The notes under the pieces: generated by a model
The model's database searches: none
What the model was told of the DNA's origin: nothing
Seen by the model: the letters and a program-made list of their open reading frames with translations, nothing else
Assembly (NCBI GenBank): GCA_944324475.1
Contig: CALUWK010000006.1
Span: 1-64,000 of the forward strand
Reading direction: 5' to 3'
Length of the DNA: 64,000 nt
Origin: Candidatus Gastranaerophilales bacterium
GTDB lineage: Bacteria; Cyanobacteriota; Vampirovibrionia; Gastranaerophilales; Gastranaerophilaceae
Part shown: one piece after another, positions 29,650 through 42,401 of the stretch
How the letters are laid out: each line of letters starts with the position of its first letter
Position numbering within the stretch: the stretch's first letter is position 1
Position numbers and translations under genes: made by a program

Positions 29650-29797
29650 GTATTAATAAATTTTGTTAAGTTATGTAAATAAAAAATAATGTTTTGTTAT
29701 TGAAAAAAAAATTTGGGAACTAATTAATTGGATAAAGGAACATCTTTGTTTTGATGTCAAAATCTGCAGCAAGTAATTAAAAGTAAAGGTGGTAAAA

Positions 29798-31027
29798 ATG
29801 GGATTATCGGCAAGTCAGGGCAGAATGTTATTATTAACTGCCAGAAAGAGTGACCTAGAGTATAGGGCACAGCAAATTTCGCAAAAAAGATTGGTTCTTG
29901 CTCAACAGTTGGAAGAAATTGCTGTTGAATATGAAGATGCAACGTCAAATAGACAAATGAAAATTTCACTAGCACTTGCTTCAACTAATTCAGGAAGTGA
30001 TATTGTAAATAGAACCGCAAATTTAACTTATGCAACTTTAATTAGTGGCACATTAAACCAATTTTCATCTGATGATAGTGGTATACAAGCTTATGATAGA
30101 ACTGCAAATCAGGAGTATGCAAGTACAACTGCATATAGATTGGTGGATGCTTATGGTGCCATTGTTGTTTCAAGTGAAGATGAAATTCCAGGTTCTGTTT
30201 CAAAGGTTTCTAATACAGTCACTGCACAAGATGATGATGGGGTATATAGAGTAGGAACCACGTCCGCTGAAGGCGAAAAAGAAAATAGCGGAGATAATTA
30301 TATTGTTGTGCCAAAATCAGGTAATACAGATACCGCATTGGGAACTTTTTTAGATTCTTCAAAAGAAATAAGCACAAAAAATTTACAAATTGATACTGAG
30401 CATAAAATGGTAGCTTTGGTTAAAAGCGATGGTTCTAAAGCATATTATAATTATATGACCGGAGCTGAAATTACTGATGAAGCAGAAAAGAATAAATTTT
30501 CAAGTTCTGAAACTGCAACATTGGTTAACGATTCATCTTCAATTCCTTCTTCAACAGTTAAATCTAGTATTAACGTTAATAAAGTTGAAGGTGCTGACGG
30601 AAAATTTAGCCTAGTAGATGAAAATGGTGTTGTGATAAGACGTTATGTTGTTGATACAACTTTAAAATATGGTTCAACTGATGTTGATGGCGCAACAGAC
30701 GGTCCTAATTATCTTCAGGATTGTTTAAGAAACGGAAAGTACTTGCTTGAAAAAGGCAGTATTGATACTGAGACAAATAAGGTAAAATGGAATAGCTTAT
30801 CTTGGGATTCAACAGCAAATATTTCTGATTCATATTATACCGAAGACGACGATAGAGCAAAAGCAAAATATGATAGATTACAAACGCAAATTCAAAACCA
30901 AGATAAAAAACTTGAAATAGAACTTGATAATATTGAAACTCAAAGAAGTGCTGTAACTACAGAAGTTGAGTCAGTTCAGAAGGTAATCGACGATAATATT
31001 GAAAGTTCTTTTAAAACATTTGCTTAA
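29798..31027 (+). CDS. GLSASQ-type protein with N- and C-terminal coiled coils, unknown function
   Basis: A 409-residue protein. The N-terminus, MGLSASQGRMLLLTARKSDLE, then YRAQQISQKRL, is a helical motif I recall as recurrent in Melainabacteria proteins of unknown function. Residues 1-60 and about 345-405 are amphipathic helices; the middle is a serine-, threonine- and asparagine-rich beta-like region. Helical ends around a variable middle are the layout of flagellin- and hook-associated-type exported proteins, but I see no direct homology. The ATG at 29798 is chosen because AAAGGTGG lies six bases before it; an in-frame GTG nine bases upstream is rejected. Confidence 0.8.
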   Translation: MGLSASQGRMLLLTARKSDLEYRAQQISQKRLVLAQQLEEIAVEYEDATSNRQMKISLALASTNSGSDIVNRTANLTYATLISGTLNQFSSDDSGIQAYDRTANQEYASTTAYRLVDAYGAIVVSSEDEIPGSVSKVSNTVTAQDDDGVYRVGTTSAEGEKENSGDNYIVVPKSGNTDTALGTFLDSSKEISTKNLQIDTEHKMVALVKSDGSKAYYNYMTGAEITDEAEKNKFSSSETATLVNDSSSIPSSTVKSSINVNKVEGADGKFSLVDENGVVIRRYVVDTTLKYGSTDVDGATDGPNYLQDCLRNGKYLLEKGSIDTETNKVKWNSLSWDSTANISDSYYTEDDDRAKAKYDRLQTQIQNQDKKLEIELDNIETQRSAVTTEVESVQKVIDDNIESSFKTFA

Positions 31028-35056: not shown

Positions 35057-36196
35057 ATGATTATTTTGGAAAAACCTTATGTTTCAGATTTTTTGGTTGA
35101 TACAATTAAGAAAAATGCTTTTGTAGCGCTAAAAACTCCTTTGGCAAAAGAATTTTTAACTGATGATTTTCTTATAGATGAGAGTGATACAAATAAATTA
35201 GAAAATGAATTGTTATATTCCAATTCGGAAAATGCAATTAATTGGGTACTTGCAAATTTTAAATCAAAAAAAATTTCTGAATATATTAAAATTTGCAAAG
35301 ATAAAATTTTATTTAGAGAAACTCTAAAATCTATATATCCTGATTTTTATTTTAAAAAAGTTTTATTATCTGAAATTGAATTAATTAACCCTGCTGAGCT
35401 AAATTTTCCACTTATTTTGAAGCCTTCTGTGGGTTTTTTAAGTTTTGGAGTTTATCCCATAAAGAATGAAATTGAATGGAATAATGTCATATTAAAGTTG
35501 AAAAATGAAATAGAAAATTATAAAGGTGTTTTTCCTGAAAATGTTGTTAATTTTGATGAATTTATTATAGAGGAAATGATTGAAGGAGAAGAATTTGCTC
35601 TTGATGCTTATTATGATGAAAATGGTGAGGCTATAATATTAAATATTTTTAAACACCCGTTTTTTGATGACAACGATGTATCAGACAGGGTTTACTATAC
35701 GTCATCAGAAATTATTAAAGATAATCTTGAAGAATTTAAAGAAATGCTTGATAAGATAGGTAAATGTTGCGGTTTTAAAAATTTTCCTTTTCATATTGAA
35801 TTAAGGGCAAATCAGAAAAAAGTTGTTCCTATTGAAATAAATCCTTTGAGGTTTTGCGGATGGTGTATAACTGATATTGCGTATTTTGCATGGGGAATAA
35901 ATGTTTATGAATATTACTTTAAAAAAGTAAAACCTAATTGGTCAAAAATTTTATCAAATGTAGATGATGCGTATTATTATTTTACAATGGCAGATATTCC
36001 TTCCGATATTAAAAAGGACGATATAAAAAATATTGATTACAATGCTTATTTAAAAAATATTAAAAATCCTCTTGAAATAAGGAAAATTAATCCAAATAAT
36101 AATCCGGTTTTTGCTATTGTGTTTGCAAAAACAAATTCTATGGATGAAATAAAAAATCTTTTAAAATTGAATATGAAAAAATTTATTGTTTTTTAA
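35057..36196 (+). CDS. ATP-grasp family ligase, substrate unknown
   Basis: A 379-residue ATP-grasp enzyme. FPLILKPSVGFLSFGV (about residues 117-132) is the ATP-binding Lys/Gly-rich loop, EFIIEEMIEGEEFALDAYY the hinge region, and IEINPLRFCG the Mg-binding Glu-x-Asn motif. The N-terminal approximately 90 residues would be the pre-ATP-grasp domain. Such enzymes ligate a carboxylate to an amine or thiol; nothing nearby names the substrate. Its last 14 bases overlap the convergent RNR-like gene. Confidence 0.82.
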   Translation: MIILEKPYVSDFLVDTIKKNAFVALKTPLAKEFLTDDFLIDESDTNKLENELLYSNSENAINWVLANFKSKKISEYIKICKDKILFRETLKSIYPDFYFKKVLLSEIELINPAELNFPLILKPSVGFLSFGVYPIKNEIEWNNVILKLKNEIENYKGVFPENVVNFDEFIIEEMIEGEEFALDAYYDENGEAIILNIFKHPFFDDNDVSDRVYYTSSEIIKDNLEEFKEMLDKIGKCCGFKNFPFHIELRANQKKVVPIEINPLRFCGWCITDIAYFAWGINVYEYYFKKVKPNWSKILSNVDDAYYYFTMADIPSDIKKDDIKNIDYNAYLKNIKNPLEIRKINPNNNPVFAIVFAKTNSMDEIKNLLKLNMKKFIVF

Positions 36197-37523
36197 AAAC
36201 AGTAATACCTTTTAAATTATATTCTTTTGATTTTCTGACAATCATATCAATGTCATTTATTGTTGCGTTGTTGTCAAGTATAATGGTTTTTGATATATTT
36301 CCTTCCATATATTTTTGTGCTGTTTTTAAAGTTTCAAGTTCTGCTATATAGTTGCCGTAGGTATCGGGTTCTATTGAAGGACTTGTTTTTAATATTCTTG
36401 AAACATTGCCTGTAGGAGATATTGCCATTTTCAAATTGTATAATGATGTTTGTTTTTTTATAGATTTTAGCATAGTATCAAGTATTTTGAGTGCTTCTTT
36501 GCTTCCATATTTAATATTCATTTTGTTTAATAAGCTTTGATAACCTAATATTCCTATATATCCATTTTTATCAAGAGAGGATAAAGCTTTTGATAAAATA
36601 TTTGCCGATTCGTTTAGTTTTTTAAAATTTATAGTATTATTTTTTTTATCATAAAATTTTGAAAGATTTATATGAGCTAAAGTTAAGCTTTCATCTGGTC
36701 TTAGGGGGGCTGTTGCGCAACAATCACAAATATAATCTTTGTCATTTGAAAAAATAATTCCGGGTTCTCCTTTTTTGAACATAGAGTTTAAAAGTGTTAA
36801 ATAAATTTTTTTAGCTTTTAATTTTGAACCGTTTAATAAAGTTATATATTCATCATTATCAACTTTTTTAAAAAAATCATCAGGAATAATAACAGATAAA
36901 TCAAAACACCAATCTTTAAAATCCGCATCATTTTTTAGAGTTATAAAATCTATAATCATAGGATGATTAATGTTTAAAAGTGCAATTCCTGCCGGAGGCC
37001 TGTTTAAATCACCTTTTTTTTGTCTGTATAAAAAATATGAATTTATATCTTTTATTTTTTCTATTGGATTATTGAATTCTGTGAAATTTATCCCTATTCC
37101 TTTTTCATTTTTTATATAGTTCTCTAAACATATAAGACAACTTGCTGTACTTTTATTTTTATCTATTTTTATTGCTTTTGCGCTGCTTAAATCATTATTG
37201 CTTAAAATACCGTTGTAAATTGATGTTGAAAATGATATATAACCTTTATTTAATAGATTTTCTAAAATGCAGGTATCTTCATCATTAAAAAATATTTTCT
37301 TTGAAATTTCTTTAAAAAAGTCTTTAGAGTTTTGATTTTTTGTAGCTATTTTTCTTTGTATCAATGGAGAAAAATTAATTTCTTGAAATTGGATTAAATC
37401 TGTTGGAAGCATAGTTTGAAAATTATCAAAAGTACTAAAAACAGGATTAACCATGTCATAAAACTTGAGATTAATTGGTGTAAAATTATTTTTATTAAAA
37501 TACATTGTGGTAATTTTTGTCAT
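36183..37523 (-). CDS. Degenerate ribonucleotide reductase-like protein in the smc operon
   Basis: A 446-residue protein with the core segments of class II (NrdJ-type) ribonucleotide reductase in order: STASCLICLE with Cys129, KGIGINFTEF, NRPPAGIALLNINHPMIIDFI, KGEPGIIFSND, DCCATAPLRPDES with LAHINLSKF, then ISPTGNVSRI and NLKGITVFKKQ. The active-site triad N-x-C-x-E reads D267-x-C269-x-T271, so the thiyl Cys is kept but Asn and Glu are replaced. There is no ATP cone and no C-terminal Cys pair, and length is well under the approximately 650-750 of working enzymes. It starts 3 bases after scpB. Function unknown. Confidence 0.85.
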   Translation of the reverse strand: MTKITTMYFNKNNFTPINLKFYDMVNPVFSTFDNFQTMLPTDLIQFQEINFSPLIQRKIATKNQNSKDFFKEISKKIFFNDEDTCILENLLNKGYISFSTSIYNGILSNNDLSSAKAIKIDKNKSTASCLICLENYIKNEKGIGINFTEFNNPIEKIKDINSYFLYRQKKGDLNRPPAGIALLNINHPMIIDFITLKNDADFKDWCFDLSVIIPDDFFKKVDNDEYITLLNGSKLKAKKIYLTLLNSMFKKGEPGIIFSNDKDYICDCCATAPLRPDESLTLAHINLSKFYDKKNNTINFKKLNESANILSKALSSLDKNGYIGILGYQSLLNKMNIKYGSKEALKILDTMLKSIKKQTSLYNLKMAISPTGNVSRILKTSPSIEPDTYGNYIAELETLKTAQKYMEGNISKTIILDNNATINDIDMIVRKSKEYNLKGITVFKKQ

Positions 37524-37526
37524 TTT

Positions 37527-38039
37527 TTAGAGATTTTTAAGATCTTCTGTGGCATCCAGTTTTTTTACAAGAGCCTTTATGTCGCCCTTTAATTTAAAAT
37601 ACTCCTGAAATTTTTTTGTTGTCTTAATATTAAAACTTCTGCCGTTTTTATCTTTTGTTTTTGAAATTAGCCCCTGTTCTAATAGTTCTGCAATATGTTC
37701 ATAGGCGTTTGAGCGAAGTTCTTTTAGTGTAGTTTGTCTAATTGGTTCTTTTAAAGCAATTACAGTTAAAGTTTTCAATACAGAAGGCTTTAACTCTACG
37801 GGGCAAAGTTTTTCAACTATATCCATATGTTCTGCTTTAACTTGAATAATATATCCGTCCTCATCATCTATTTCAAGTGCGCCGTTTCTTGATGAGTAAT
37901 CAAACATTAAATCTAAAAGTGCATCTGTAATTTTTTCTTCTTCTATATTTATAATTTCAGCAATTTCAGCAGGTTGCATTGCTTTTGAAGTTATAAATAA
38001 AACCGCCTCAATTTTAGCTTTTAGGTTTTCTGTTTCCAT
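37527..38039 (-). CDS. scpB: Segregation and condensation protein B
   Basis: Kleisin-associated winged-helix protein of the SMC condensin (170 residues). It has the ScpB pattern: LKAKIEAVLFITSKAMQPAEIAEII at the N-terminus, then SVLKTLTVIALKEPIRQTTLKELR and LEQGLISKTKDKNGRSFNIKTT, two winged-helix domains. It overlaps the end of scpA by 26 bases; GAGG lies 9 bases before the ATG. Confidence 0.94.
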   Translation of the reverse strand: METENLKAKIEAVLFITSKAMQPAEIAEIINIEEEKITDALLDLMFDYSSRNGALEIDDEDGYIIQVKAEHMDIVEKLCPVELKPSVLKTLTVIALKEPIRQTTLKELRSNAYEHIAELLEQGLISKTKDKNGRSFNIKTTKKFQEYFKLKGDIKALVKKLDATEDLKNL

Positions 38040-38907
38040 TATTTATTTTAACCTCTTTTTCTTGTGCATTTTGAACATATAGTTTTCCATAAAATTCTTT
38101 TTGAAAAATTTCATATTTTTCTTCACGGGCTAAAAATAGCAATGCAATAAAAGCGGAGCTTCTATCAAAACCTAATAAACATAACTCTCTTAATTCTATA
38201 TTTTTTTCATGATTTAAAATTTGTGACAGGTTTTGTCTCATTTTTTCAACAACTTCTTCAACATATTCTTCATGAGCCAATTCTTTGATTTCGGATGCTT
38301 TTAAATTTGAATAGTTTCTTACTCTGTGCTCTTTTCTTATTATTGCATTTTTAATTGCATATTTTTTTTCTAAATCTTCATAAAATTGAATATGTCTAAT
38401 TAAGTCTTTTAAAGTTACGCTTCTTTTTCTGTTTAAACGGACAGATGTTCTTCTTTGCAATACTTCATCAAATGATACAATATTATTTGTTGGAATTTGT
38501 GTTTGTTTGTAATCCGTATCAAAATTTTCATCATCAAAATAATCTAGCGGTTCAGGATCAAAATCATTTATTGAAATTCCTTGCAAAATATCTGATTTAA
38601 TTTTTAGAAGCGTAGCGGAAAAAAGTATTGCTTTTCCAACAGAACGTAGGTTCTCTTGTTTTAATTCGGATATTCTTTTCATGTATTTGTCGTATAAGTC
38701 AACAATATCAATATTCCAAGGATCAAGTTTTCCTTCTTTCACTAAATCAAGAATTATCTCTATGGCATCTGTTTGTACGTTTTTTTTGATACCAGCACGA
38801 GAAATAAATTCTGTGTTATTTCCAAAATCAACAGTTCCATCCAGAATTTTAATTTCATTATAATTTAATTTATTATTTGTATAAAAATTACTAACTGCTT
38901 CAGTCAT
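38014..38907 (-). CDS. scpA: Segregation and condensation protein A
   Basis: Kleisin subunit that bridges the SMC heads. The N-terminal helical domain has AIEIILDLVKEGKLDPWNIDIVDLYDKYM (about 48-76), the variant typical of Cyanobacteria-related ScpA, and the C-terminal winged helix has ELCLLGFDRSSAFIALLFLAREEKYEIFQKEFYG. Length 297. The ATG overlaps the smc stop by one base. Together with smc and scpB it forms a complete condensin operon. Confidence 0.93.
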   Translation of the reverse strand: MTEAVSNFYTNNKLNYNEIKILDGTVDFGNNTEFISRAGIKKNVQTDAIEIILDLVKEGKLDPWNIDIVDLYDKYMKRISELKQENLRSVGKAILFSATLLKIKSDILQGISINDFDPEPLDYFDDENFDTDYKQTQIPTNNIVSFDEVLQRRTSVRLNRKRSVTLKDLIRHIQFYEDLEKKYAIKNAIIRKEHRVRNYSNLKASEIKELAHEEYVEEVVEKMRQNLSQILNHEKNIELRELCLLGFDRSSAFIALLFLAREEKYEIFQKEFYGKLYVQNAQEKEVKINNGNRKPKS

Positions 38908-41900
38908 TATTCATCTTTCACTTTGATGCCGGAAACTTTTGTTATTCCTTTATCTTTTTGTGTGACTCCTATCATTCTATCTGCGTTATCTAACATGGGC
39001 TTTCTTAGTGAAATAACCACAAATTGTGCTGCTTTTGATTGTTTTTCTATCATAGAAGCAAGTTTTTCAACATTTGGGCCATCTAAATGCATATCAACTT
39101 CATCAAATGCGTAAAATGGTGAAGGTAAATATTTTTGTATTGCAAAAACGAAAGCAAGAGCTGTTAAAGATTTTTCACCACCTGACATACCTGCAAGTTT
39201 TTGGTTTCTTTTATCTCTTATATTTGCCTCAAAAGTAAGTCCTCCTTCAAAAGGATTACTTTCATTTTCTAAAACCAATGTGCCTTCTCCTTCAGAAAGA
39301 TTGGCAAAGACTTCTTTAAAATTTTTATTGATTGCATAATAAGCGTCAAGGAAGGTTTCTTTTTTTAATTTTTGATAACCGTTCATTCTTGATTTTATTT
39401 CATTTTTTTCATTTTCAAGAGTTAAGACTTTTTCTTTGTAAGAATTTTGCCGTTCAATTACTTCATCATATTGAATTAAGGCTCTCATATTAACAGGTTC
39501 TAAGTCTTCCATTTTCTTTTGCAGTTTTGAAATTTTAGTGTTTATTTCATCGAGTGAAATTTCCGTTTGCTCAAGTTTTTTAGGGTCAATTCCTGCAACT
39601 TCAAATTCTTTTAATATATTTTCAAGTATTGGTTCAAGTTCTTTTCTTCTTGCTTTGTAACTTTCTTCTTGTTCTAAAAGTCTTTCTATAGTATCTTGAA
39701 TTTTATTTTTTTCTGTTTTGTTGGCTAAAAGTTCGTCTTGCAATTCGTCTCTTTTGGTTTGGAGCTCAACAAGATTTTTTCCAAGTTCTTCAATTTCTTT
39801 TTCTAAAAGTTCAAGCTCTTTTTTTACATTTTCAATTTCAGATGAAAATTGTTCACGTTCAGTTTTTAAGTTTTCATTATCTTTTGTTAATTTTTCAATA
39901 TCAGTTTGTCTTGTTAAAATTTGGCTTTGTTGAAATTTAATTTGATTTTCATCCTTTTCAATATTGTTTTCAACTAACATTATTGATTTTTCAAGTGTTT
40001 TGATTTCTTCTTCTATGTCACTTGTTTTTTCTTTTAATTTTTTTAGTTCACCTTCATCAATAAGTTTTTCAACTTCTTCGAGTTTTTGTTGAACATTTTG
40101 AATTTTGTCGTTTAATTTAATGTGACGATTTTCAAATAAATCAAGCTCTTTTGAAAGTTTTTTATTTTTTTCTTTAAAATTTTTAAGATCTTCTTCTCCT
40201 TTTTTAATAACTTCAGAGGATTGCTCATTGTTTGCAATTAAATTTTTAAGTTCAATTTTTGTTGAGTTTAAAGTGTTTAAGGACGTCGAGTGCTTTTGTC
40301 TAATGTCATTTAATCTTCTTTCTAGATCTTTTTCTGCTTGATTTAAATTTTTTGCAATTTCTTCGGTTTCTTTTAATAATTTTTTATATTTTTCAAGTTC
40401 TCTTTCTTGGTTTTTGTCAAAAAATGAAGCATTTTTCTTTTTTGCACCTCCGGTTATAAGTCCGCTTTTTTCGGTAATATCTCCTTCAAGAGTTACTACT
40501 CTATATTTTCCTGCAAGTTTTTTTGCAGTTGTTTCATTTTCTACGACAACCGTTTCTCCAAGTGCAAAATAAAATGCATCAATGTATTTATCATCAAAAT
40601 CTACCAAATTAATAGCAAAATCAATAACCCCTTTTTCTTTTGGTAAAATCATTCTTGAGGGGGCTTTTTTTATTACATCCATTGGTATAAAAGAGGCTCT
40701 ATCTCTACCTTGTGAACGTAATATTTGAATTGCCTTATAGGCAGTGTCTTGATTATCTACAACTATTGAAAAAGCTCTTGCACCCATGGCGACGTTAATT
40801 GCATCAATATATTCATTTTCTACATCTGCCAGTTGAGCTAATGGTTTGTGTACCCCTTGAATATGGGCTTTCATGACAGTTTCTACACCTGAGCCCATTC
40901 CAATTGACTTATATGCATTTTTGTTGGCATCTAATATTGCAATTCTTTTTTGAGCTTGTTGGATTTTATAAAATGAATCTTCTTTTTGAGTTTTTGTTTT
41001 ATCAAGTTCTTCAAAAGTTTTTGTTTGTAAAATTTTGAAGTTATTAACTTCATTTTCAAGTGTTTCAATTTGAATGTTTAATTTATCTTTTTCGCTTTCA
41101 AACATTTTTGCAGAATTTAATAGTTGGTTAATTGTTTGTTTTGCGTGTTCTATTTTTTCTGTATTATTCTTATATTCGCTTTCAACAGGTAACTGTTCTT
41201 TGATTAATTGTGTTTCTTCGTCTTTTAAATTTTCTATTTCTTTTCTTAATTTATTTCGATTTTGTATGTGCTCATCTGCTGATTTATTTAAACCCGTCAT
41301 TTCGCTAATAATTTTATTTAGTTGTAATTTTTTTTCTTTAAGATTTTCATTTAAAATTTTTAGTTCGCCTTTTTTTTCTTTTATTGCTTGTTTAAATTCT
41401 TCGATTTTTTGTTTTTGAACTTCTATTCCGTTTTTGTAGCTTTCAATGGCTTTAATATTATCTAAAGTTGTTTTTTCAACTTGAGCTATTGCTGATTTTT
41501 TTCTTTCAATTTCACCTTTTTTTTCTTCTGCGGTTTTTTTAACTTCAAGTTGTTTTTCTTCTCCTTGGGCTTTAACTTTTGAGTTTATTTCATCGTATTT
41601 TGTTTTTGTATCTTGGATTTTAAGTTCAGTTTCTTTAAGTTTTTGATTCAATTCTTTTTTTTCTTTTGTTGCTAAAAGGATATTTTGATGGACAAGTTCT
41701 AGTGAGCGAATTGTATCAAAATATTTTGCACTTTGTATTTGATTTTCTAAAAGTGTTTTTTCGTCTTTATATTTTTTATATTTTAGGGCAACTTCTCTTT
41801 CTTCTTTTAATTGTTCAATTTGGTTATCTATTTCGCCCATTAAAATGTTTGTATTTGCAACTCTATCTTCAACGTCTTGTATTTGTTCCGATGCAAGATT

Positions 41901-42401
41901 AATTTTTCTTTCAAAATCTGCAATTCCCGCAATTTCATCAATTATTTCCCTTCTTTTTATTGGAGAGCATTTTGTAATTTCGGTTACATCGCCTTGCATC
42001 ATAACATTATAGCTATTAGGAGTTATGTTATATTTTTCGAGTTCAAGATGTATTTGAGTTAATGTGGCAGGCTTATCGTTATAGTAATAGTTTGATTGTA
42101 CTCCGTTTTTGTTCTTTTTAATATGTCTTTTTATTGAAAATTCACTGTTTTTATCACCAAATGTTACTTTAACTAACGCTTCCCCTCTTTTGTTATGATT
42201 TGTAATTAAATCAGCAGAACCTTGTTCTGAACGTAATGCTCTGGCGGATGATAAGCCTAATGCAAATAGAATACTATCAATTATATTGCTTTTTCCGGAG
42301 CCATTAGGGCCGGATATCGCAGTAAAGCCTTCTAATAGAGGGATGGTTACTTTATTTGCAAAAGATTTAAAATTATCTATTTCTATTTCTTTTATATACA
42401 T
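38907..42401 (-). CDS. smc: Chromosome segregation protein SMC
   Basis: Condensin ATPase of 1164 residues. Walker A GPNGSGKSN lies at residues 32-40, two long coiled coils flank a hinge (about 500-650, IGMGSGVETVMKAHIQGVHKPLAQL), and the C-terminal head carries the signature LAGMSGGEKSLTALAF and Walker B FYAFDEVDMHLDG. Length and architecture are complete. A TTGACA promoter precedes it, but the Shine-Dalgarno GGAG sits unusually far (about 17 bases) from the ATG. First gene of the smc-scpA-scpB-RNR-like operon. Confidence 0.97.
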   Translation of the reverse strand: MYIKEIEIDNFKSFANKVTIPLLEGFTAISGPNGSGKSNIIDSILFALGLSSARALRSEQGSADLITNHNKRGEALVKVTFGDKNSEFSIKRHIKKNKNGVQSNYYYNDKPATLTQIHLELEKYNITPNSYNVMMQGDVTEITKCSPIKRREIIDEIAGIADFERKINLASEQIQDVEDRVANTNILMGEIDNQIEQLKEEREVALKYKKYKDEKTLLENQIQSAKYFDTIRSLELVHQNILLATKEKKELNQKLKETELKIQDTKTKYDEINSKVKAQGEEKQLEVKKTAEEKKGEIERKKSAIAQVEKTTLDNIKAIESYKNGIEVQKQKIEEFKQAIKEKKGELKILNENLKEKKLQLNKIISEMTGLNKSADEHIQNRNKLRKEIENLKDEETQLIKEQLPVESEYKNNTEKIEHAKQTINQLLNSAKMFESEKDKLNIQIETLENEVNNFKILQTKTFEELDKTKTQKEDSFYKIQQAQKRIAILDANKNAYKSIGMGSGVETVMKAHIQGVHKPLAQLADVENEYIDAINVAMGARAFSIVVDNQDTAYKAIQILRSQGRDRASFIPMDVIKKAPSRMILPKEKGVIDFAINLVDFDDKYIDAFYFALGETVVVENETTAKKLAGKYRVVTLEGDITEKSGLITGGAKKKNASFFDKNQERELEKYKKLLKETEEIAKNLNQAEKDLERRLNDIRQKHSTSLNTLNSTKIELKNLIANNEQSSEVIKKGEEDLKNFKEKNKKLSKELDLFENRHIKLNDKIQNVQQKLEEVEKLIDEGELKKLKEKTSDIEEEIKTLEKSIMLVENNIEKDENQIKFQQSQILTRQTDIEKLTKDNENLKTEREQFSSEIENVKKELELLEKEIEELGKNLVELQTKRDELQDELLANKTEKNKIQDTIERLLEQEESYKARRKELEPILENILKEFEVAGIDPKKLEQTEISLDEINTKISKLQKKMEDLEPVNMRALIQYDEVIERQNSYKEKVLTLENEKNEIKSRMNGYQKLKKETFLDAYYAINKNFKEVFANLSEGEGTLVLENESNPFEGGLTFEANIRDKRNQKLAGMSGGEKSLTALAFVFAIQKYLPSPFYAFDEVDMHLDGPNVEKLASMIEKQSKAAQFVVISLRKPMLDNADRMIGVTQKDKGITKVSGIKVKDE

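Follow-up and report, generated by a model that had tools for sequence, protein, structure and literature searches.

Ribonucleotide reductase (RNR) is among the most conserved enzymes known. The described systems closest to the protein analyzed here are the AdoCbl-dependent class II enzyme NrdJ (T. maritima structures 1xje and 3o0o; NCBIfam model TIGR02504), the class O minimal RNR of a Synechococcus phage, and the inactive large-subunit (R1) homologues of betaherpesviruses. The roles of the RNR catalytic Glu and Cys pair have been described (PMC4390871), loop 1 serves as the site for specificity effectors (PMC9669993), and the class II beta-hairpin is thought to bind the cofactor (PMC9531940).

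We analyzed a window of 64,000 nucleotides (positions 1 to 64,000 of contig CALUWK010000006.1) from a Gastranaerophilales genome of 1.72 Mb in 64 contigs that is 97% complete. A preliminary description of this DNA had proposed that a 446-residue open reading frame, three bases behind scpB in a condensin operon, encodes a catalytically altered class II RNR-like protein, here called RNRL. The frame is real and lies on the minus strand, which that description had left unstated: its ATG is at 37523 and its stop ends at 36183, while the plus strand of the region is rich in stops. The end of scpB at 37527 leaves the distance of three bases as claimed, and Pfam matches back the identities of smc, scpA and scpB upstream ( Table 1 ). 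The convergent ATP-grasp gene is a neighbour, outside the condensin operon.

Table 1. Window positions of the genes and RNRL segments discussed in the text.
Feature	Position	Strand	Remarks
RNR-like protein (RNRL)	36183..37523	minus	446 aa, class II-type 10-stranded barrel, active site incomplete
scpB	37527..38039	minus	Pfam; 3 bases upstream of RNRL
scpA	38014..38907	minus	Pfam
smc	38907..42401	minus	Pfam
ATP-grasp gene	35057..36196	plus	convergent; overlaps RNRL 3' end by 14 nt
RNRL N-terminal tail, residues 1-49	37377..37523	minus	AlphaFold pLDDT below ~65; variable in 26 homologues; no ATP-cone
S114-A115-K116, site of first NrdJ redox Cys	37176..37184	minus	Cys-free in every homologue
Residues 147-153, place of deleted 14-aa NrdJ loop 1 (dNTP specificity site)	37065..37085	minus	
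W205-C206, pair newly invariant in RNRL clade	36906..36911	minus	
Finger-loop site D267-C268-C269-A270-T271 (NrdJ: N-P-C-G-E)	36711..36725	minus	D267 and C269 invariant 26/26
L280, in place of second NrdJ redox Cys (C333 of T. maritima)	36684..36686	minus	
S369-PTGNV-S375, substrate-phosphate loop, retained	36399..36419	minus	P370 26/26, G372 25/26, S375 conserved
Residues 385-392, place of deleted 61-aa NrdJ segment with beta-hairpin	36348..36371	minus	

The surroundings of the gene show several further features. The tail-to-tail overlap between RNRL and the ATP-grasp gene (window 36183-36196) is conserved in 18 of 26 genomes, with a length of 14, 23 or 11 nt. Throughout the genus, ScpA (window 38014-38907, minus strand) carries an N-terminal extension of about 30-50 residues (..LDGTVDF..TEFIS..GIKK..), which is also present in two genomes that lack RNRL and was not seen in the ScpA of genome G310, from another genus. 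Farther away, at 29789-31027 on the plus strand, lies the gene for a 412-aa protein with the N-terminus MVKMGLSASQGRMLLLTARKSDLEYRAQQISQKRL; the protein encoded at L049:2018-3766 begins similarly (MGMAASQARLLSITARLTNNE...), and the two may belong to a lineage-wide family. The N-terminal tails of RNRLs (window 37377-37523, minus strand) are often similar in style (MKITPxxF...F.G), and a few Gastranaerophilales open reading frames that are unrelated to RNRL have tails like them, for example L160:6767-7723. A rough regular-expression scan for a shared N-terminal targeting motif (MKITPxxF...FKG-like) yielded no clear class, and this idea was dropped.

The homology of RNRL to RNR is far above chance. 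Its sole Pfam match, PF02867, scores 79.3 bits (E 3e-22) where 23.9 would suffice, and it matches T. maritima NrdJ directly by phmmer (E 1.7e-11); the TIGR02504 model (NrdJ_Z equivalog) scores 107.8 bits and does not reach its cut-off of 399.95. The class II core motifs read by the preliminary description (GIGINFTEF, GEPGIIF, APLRPDES...INLSKF, SPTGNVSRI and LKGITVF) are all present. An AlphaFold2 model built on 24 sequences has a mean pLDDT of 87.5 and a pTM of 0.84, with an N-terminal tail of ∼49 residues that is unsure, and it displays the RNR fold: in a Foldseek search of the PDB its best matches are the T. maritima NrdJ structures (E 6e-21, TM ∼0.7 by query length), with class I large subunits ranking after them. 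Sequence, profile and structure searches all rank NrdJ first; it shares with RNRL the fold, the motif order, the finger-loop Cys, the PTG phosphate loop and the final KGITV strand. There is no Pfam match in RNRL to an ATP-cone, nor to PF13597 (NRDD domain) or a glycyl-radical C-terminus.

The differences from NrdJ are concentrated in the parts that carry out and control reduction. In the phmmer alignment, D267, C269, T271 and L280 of RNRL fall opposite N320, C322, E324 and C333 of T. maritima NrdJ, which we take to be catalytic residues, in agreement with the earlier reading of the N-x-C-x-E triad as D-x-C-x-T. We compared these columns between 26 distinct RNRLs and 22 NrdJs, and found the triad intact in none of the former: Asn is replaced by Asp in all 26, and Glu by Ala in 23 and by Thr in 3, while the radical-type Cys (C269) is retained throughout. 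The second redox Cys has become Leu in 23 sequences and Phe in 3, and the first redox site is without Cys in all 26, so that both active-site redox cysteines are gone, a loss missing from the list in the preliminary description. In contrast, the N-x-C-x-E...E-x-C motif is intact in 80 of 80 comparison NrdJs; the count lists 81 sequences, the lone exception being the intermediate L143 discussed below, there named L195.

Whole segments are missing as well, RNRL having 446 residues against ∼660 in NrdJ. Among the absent stretches are 14 aa from loop 1, as well as 56 aa ahead of the phosphate-loop strand and 61 aa behind it, the latter with the hairpin. Also absent is the 55-aa Cys-rich C-terminal tail that bears redox cysteines, and its loss bears out the claim that the C-terminal Cys pair is absent. 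The assignment of the missing segments to loop 1 and to the cofactor hairpin follows sequence order and is to this extent putative. NrdJ has 241 columns with a conservation of 95% or more, of which 54 are deleted in RNRL, 135 are variable, 35 are kept and 17 are fixed as a different residue; the triad Asn-to-Asp change and the N200 position, now C206, are such "switched" invariant columns. The P-x-G...S phosphate loop is kept. Because of what is known of RNR chemistry, and as far as sequence can decide, RNRL very probably does not reduce ribonucleotides and is not an RNR.

The distribution of working RNRs in the genus points the same way. The source genome has no second PF02867 protein besides RNRL. 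It does have a complete RNR of class III, with NrdD encoded by a separate 748-aa gene (570.7 bits, cut-off 326) and NrdG adjoining it (187.7 bits, cut-off 126). NrdD was found in 27 of 28 genomes of the genus, and true NrdJ is absent from every genus genome searched; therefore RNRL is not the working RNR. Two genomes of the same genus that are 99% complete (G084 and G309) have neither RNRL nor NrdJ, yet NrdD is present in both. Together, the altered triad, the losses of redox cysteines and the separate NrdD give good support to the description of RNRL as catalytically altered. One genome (G346, 91% complete) contains RNRL without any match to NrdD or NrdJ, probably owing to missing sequence.

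The supply of cofactor was examined through two protein families. The CobA-type adenosyltransferase PF02572 was detected in none of the 28 genus genomes, compared with 28 of 30 other relatives, and the PduO-type family PF01923 in none of these 58 genomes. Judged by these two families, the genus has no route for making its own adenosylcobalamin; AdoCbl could be taken up ready-made. In sister genera NrdJ and the CobA-type adenosyltransferase are both common, and both are absent from the genomes of the present genus (g1) that were searched.

These observations bear on the idea that RNRL still works as an RNR and draws on an unusual reductant, much as class III RNRs use formate and manage without the Glu and the Cys pair. 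The invariant radical-type Cys is what such an enzyme would have, and in most class III RNRs the Glu is indeed missing and there is just one Cys (PMC4390871). However, RNRL is devoid of redox cysteines, glycyl-radical domain and cofactor hairpin alike, and its genus lacks adenosyltransferase, possesses NrdD and NrdG, and includes two genomes that do without RNRL. We regard this explanation as very improbable.

The linkage of RNRL to the condensin genes is strict within its genus. An order-level search found RNRL in 25 of 27 genus genomes and, outside the genus, returned NrdJ-type matches with the single exception of L143. In all 26 distinct homologues scpB lies directly upstream on the same strand, with a gap of -4 to +6 nt; the convergent ATP-grasp neighbour is retained at 18 of the 26 loci. 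In other genera RNRL does not occur at scpB, and in the other-genus loci inspected there is no scp gene near NrdJ, which sits among unrelated genes. The linkage to scpB anticipated in the preliminary description thus holds throughout this genus and stops at its border, and the tie to condensin is positional.

To judge from the substitution rates, RNRL is under purifying selection several times looser than that on scpB, scpA and smc: dN/dS in the 14 closest pairs, computed pairwise, is 0.14-0.23 for RNRL, against 0.005-0.06 for the three condensin genes and 0.08-0.15 for the ATP-grasp gene. Frames remain open over 368-448 codons in 26 genomes, and D267 and C269 are invariant even though the median identity among the 26 RNRLs is 49%. 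The RNRL tree has 11 of 22 splits in common with the smc-scpAB tree, where shuffles give an expectation of 0.2, and comparison of the trees resolves the absence from two genomes into two independent losses. RNRL is inherited vertically, and it almost certainly has a selected function.

The same data address the view that RNRL is what remains of a decaying NrdJ and came to lie downstream of scpB by chance. Rapid evolution, several times faster than that of the operon partners, would be expected of a relic, as would the two losses in a genus from which true NrdJ is gone. A pseudogene or decay was nevertheless rejected on the dN/dS values, the conserved frames and the invariant residues, and the confidently predicted fold also speaks against a relic; the tree described below sets RNRL outside the Gastranaerophilales NrdJs, with long branches that keep it from being decisive. 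We consider a relic highly unlikely.

Two relatives outside the genus shed light on the origin of RNRL. In G310, the gene L143:1423-3111 (plus strand) encodes a 562-aa RNR-like intermediate that is less degraded than RNRL; a true NrdJ is encoded in this genome as well (965.5 bits, cut-off 961). The L143 site reads STCAE, with Cys and Glu kept and with Asn and the second redox Cys lost. L143 has no ATP-cone, and its gene lies away from scpB, among unrelated genes. The second relative, found in the family search, is a 348-aa RNR-like protein with an SPCAD site (L041:1333-2379, plus strand, genome G083) that lacks the N-terminal part of the barrel and is encoded between alcohol-dehydrogenase-like and prenyltransferase-like genes; its origin is less sure, since it comes from a GC-richer contig of 4 kb (47% GC) in a genome that is 57% complete.

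In the tree, RNRL, L143 and L041 group apart from all NrdJs (SH-aLRT 100) on very long branches. This suggests that a paralogous RNR-like line lost its reducing cysteine early and was seated behind scpB later. A recent wreck of a resident Gastranaerophilales NrdJ is less favoured as the source, with the reservation that long-branch attraction may affect the tree. Searches of mobile elements returned distant RNRs: tblastn with RNRL gave, among the matches listed, only such RNRs from phages (24-28% over about half of the protein) and from plasmids (22-26%), and a search of viral contigs with L041 as sole query gave three distant matches. A phage or plasmid origin was therefore rejected for RNRL, for which only distant RNRs were matched. 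A defence gene was also considered and set aside, RNRL being without a PADLOC match.

RNRL, then, has been inherited vertically and kept by selection, as an RNR pseudoenzyme or as an enzyme put to a new use. Our main reading is that a retired class II-type RNR barrel has been kept for a new role; for this whole chain, with the partner left unnamed, we put the probability at roughly 0.5. On this reading the smc-scpAB mRNA would serve for the translation of RNRL along with ScpB. The old substrate pocket would hold a ligand, probably the di- or triphosphate of a ribonucleotide, and the protein would act without catalysis, as a regulator or adaptor. A ligand in this pocket is itself somewhat probable on sequence grounds, because conservation is concentrated in two places, the phosphate loop and the D-x-C of the finger loop, which make up that pocket. 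The preliminary description had raised the possibility of a dNTP sensor. A classical sensor such as RNRs have is disfavoured, because loop 1 and the ATP-cone appear to be missing and the phosphate loop for the ribonucleotide substrate alone remains; should RNRL respond to nucleotides, these are more likely to be ribonucleotides held in the substrate site. The two 99%-complete genomes that live without RNRL count against the proposed role.

The invariance of C269 and D267 is something for which a fully non-catalytic role alone does not account, and it gives rise to the main rival explanation: that RNRL is still an enzyme, now a different and non-reductive one, in which D267-x-C269, together with W205-C206, would act on a nucleotide through thiol or acid-base chemistry. 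Both residues persist across 26 sequences with a median identity of 49%, the switched columns (Asn to Asp, N200 to C206) indicate a site that was first rebuilt and then held constant, not one that eroded, and the relative L143 retains Cys and Glu without the second redox Cys. However, with no AdoCbl adenosyltransferase in the genus and the hairpin segment deleted, a class II radical could not arise by the usual route. A new enzyme of this kind seems to us unlikely.

As for the partner of such a protein, condensin or the control of replication is the most obvious candidate. The coupling to chromosome segregation that the preliminary description had proposed is a putative one that draws on gene order. 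Operon position is a weak sign of shared function, and a functional tie between RNRL and condensin, resting as it does on gene order in a single genus, is plausible; condensin as the direct partner is a tentative suggestion, and rather doubtful. The operon could instead be a convenient seat for a protein that influences the supply of nucleotides, whether by binding NrdD, by buffering nucleotides or otherwise, and is unrelated to SMC-ScpAB. The gene for L143 lies away from scpB and beside unrelated genes, operon sharing in one genus is weak functional evidence, and NrdD is nearly universal in the genus; but the adjacency of scpB and RNRL is unbroken in 26 homologues while that of the other neighbour is broken. 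Moreover, in B. subtilis hydroxyurea, which lowers dNTP, partly rescues the loss of smc, an effect whose interpretation the authors call difficult (PMC4634966) and which indicates that the two processes can interact. We judge the convenient seat to be improbable. The most specific version of a condensin role, in which RNRL is a genus-specific fourth component of SMC-ScpAB, a dead barrel that would hold ribonucleotides in its old pocket and tune condensation to nucleotide supply or replication speed, is quite improbable as well.

In this gut-bacterial genus RNRL has probably been given a new task. Its clade would offer a natural case of RNR repurposing in which the intermediate, L143, is still extant: the chemistry of reduction is lost, the radical-type Cys is invariant and the gene is fixed behind smc-scpAB. 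RNRL is also a testable candidate for a link between nucleotide metabolism and chromosome organization. In a limited collection of papers we found no report of a bacterial inactive RNR with a new role, nor of one in a condensin operon, and nothing relevant on RNR in Melainabacteria or Gastranaerophilales.

It is instructive to set RNRL beside the reduced and inactive RNRs already described. NCBIfam PRK06948, named "ribonucleotide reductase-like protein", matches RNRL locally at the C-terminal strand, with 32.9 bits against a cut-off of 906 for a model of 604 aa. The class O minimal RNR (Synechococcus phage S-CBP4, PDB 7urg) is reduced in a similar way, to a barrel of ∼410-450 aa without an ATP-cone (PMC9531940). 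Class O, however, keeps loop 1, the C-terminal Cys motif, a YY dyad and a beta-subunit gene alongside, and loop 1 and the Cys tail are absent in RNRL; the similarity to the S-CBP4 alpha subunit (E 0.06 over 27 aa) is not meaningful, and membership of RNRL in class O was rejected. A parallel in fate is provided by the inactive R1 homologues of betaherpesviruses, such as M45 of murine cytomegalovirus, which like RNRL combine an RNR large-subunit fold with a job other than ribonucleotide reduction (PMC12282084). Those proteins are class I-type and viral and target host signalling proteins, whereas RNRL resembles class II and is encoded on a bacterial chromosome. The inactive large subunits with a new role that we found in the literature are viral, and RNRL would be the bacterial case: inactive RNR large subunits with new work are already known from betaherpesviruses, and their bacterial, chromosomal counterpart would be a new variation.
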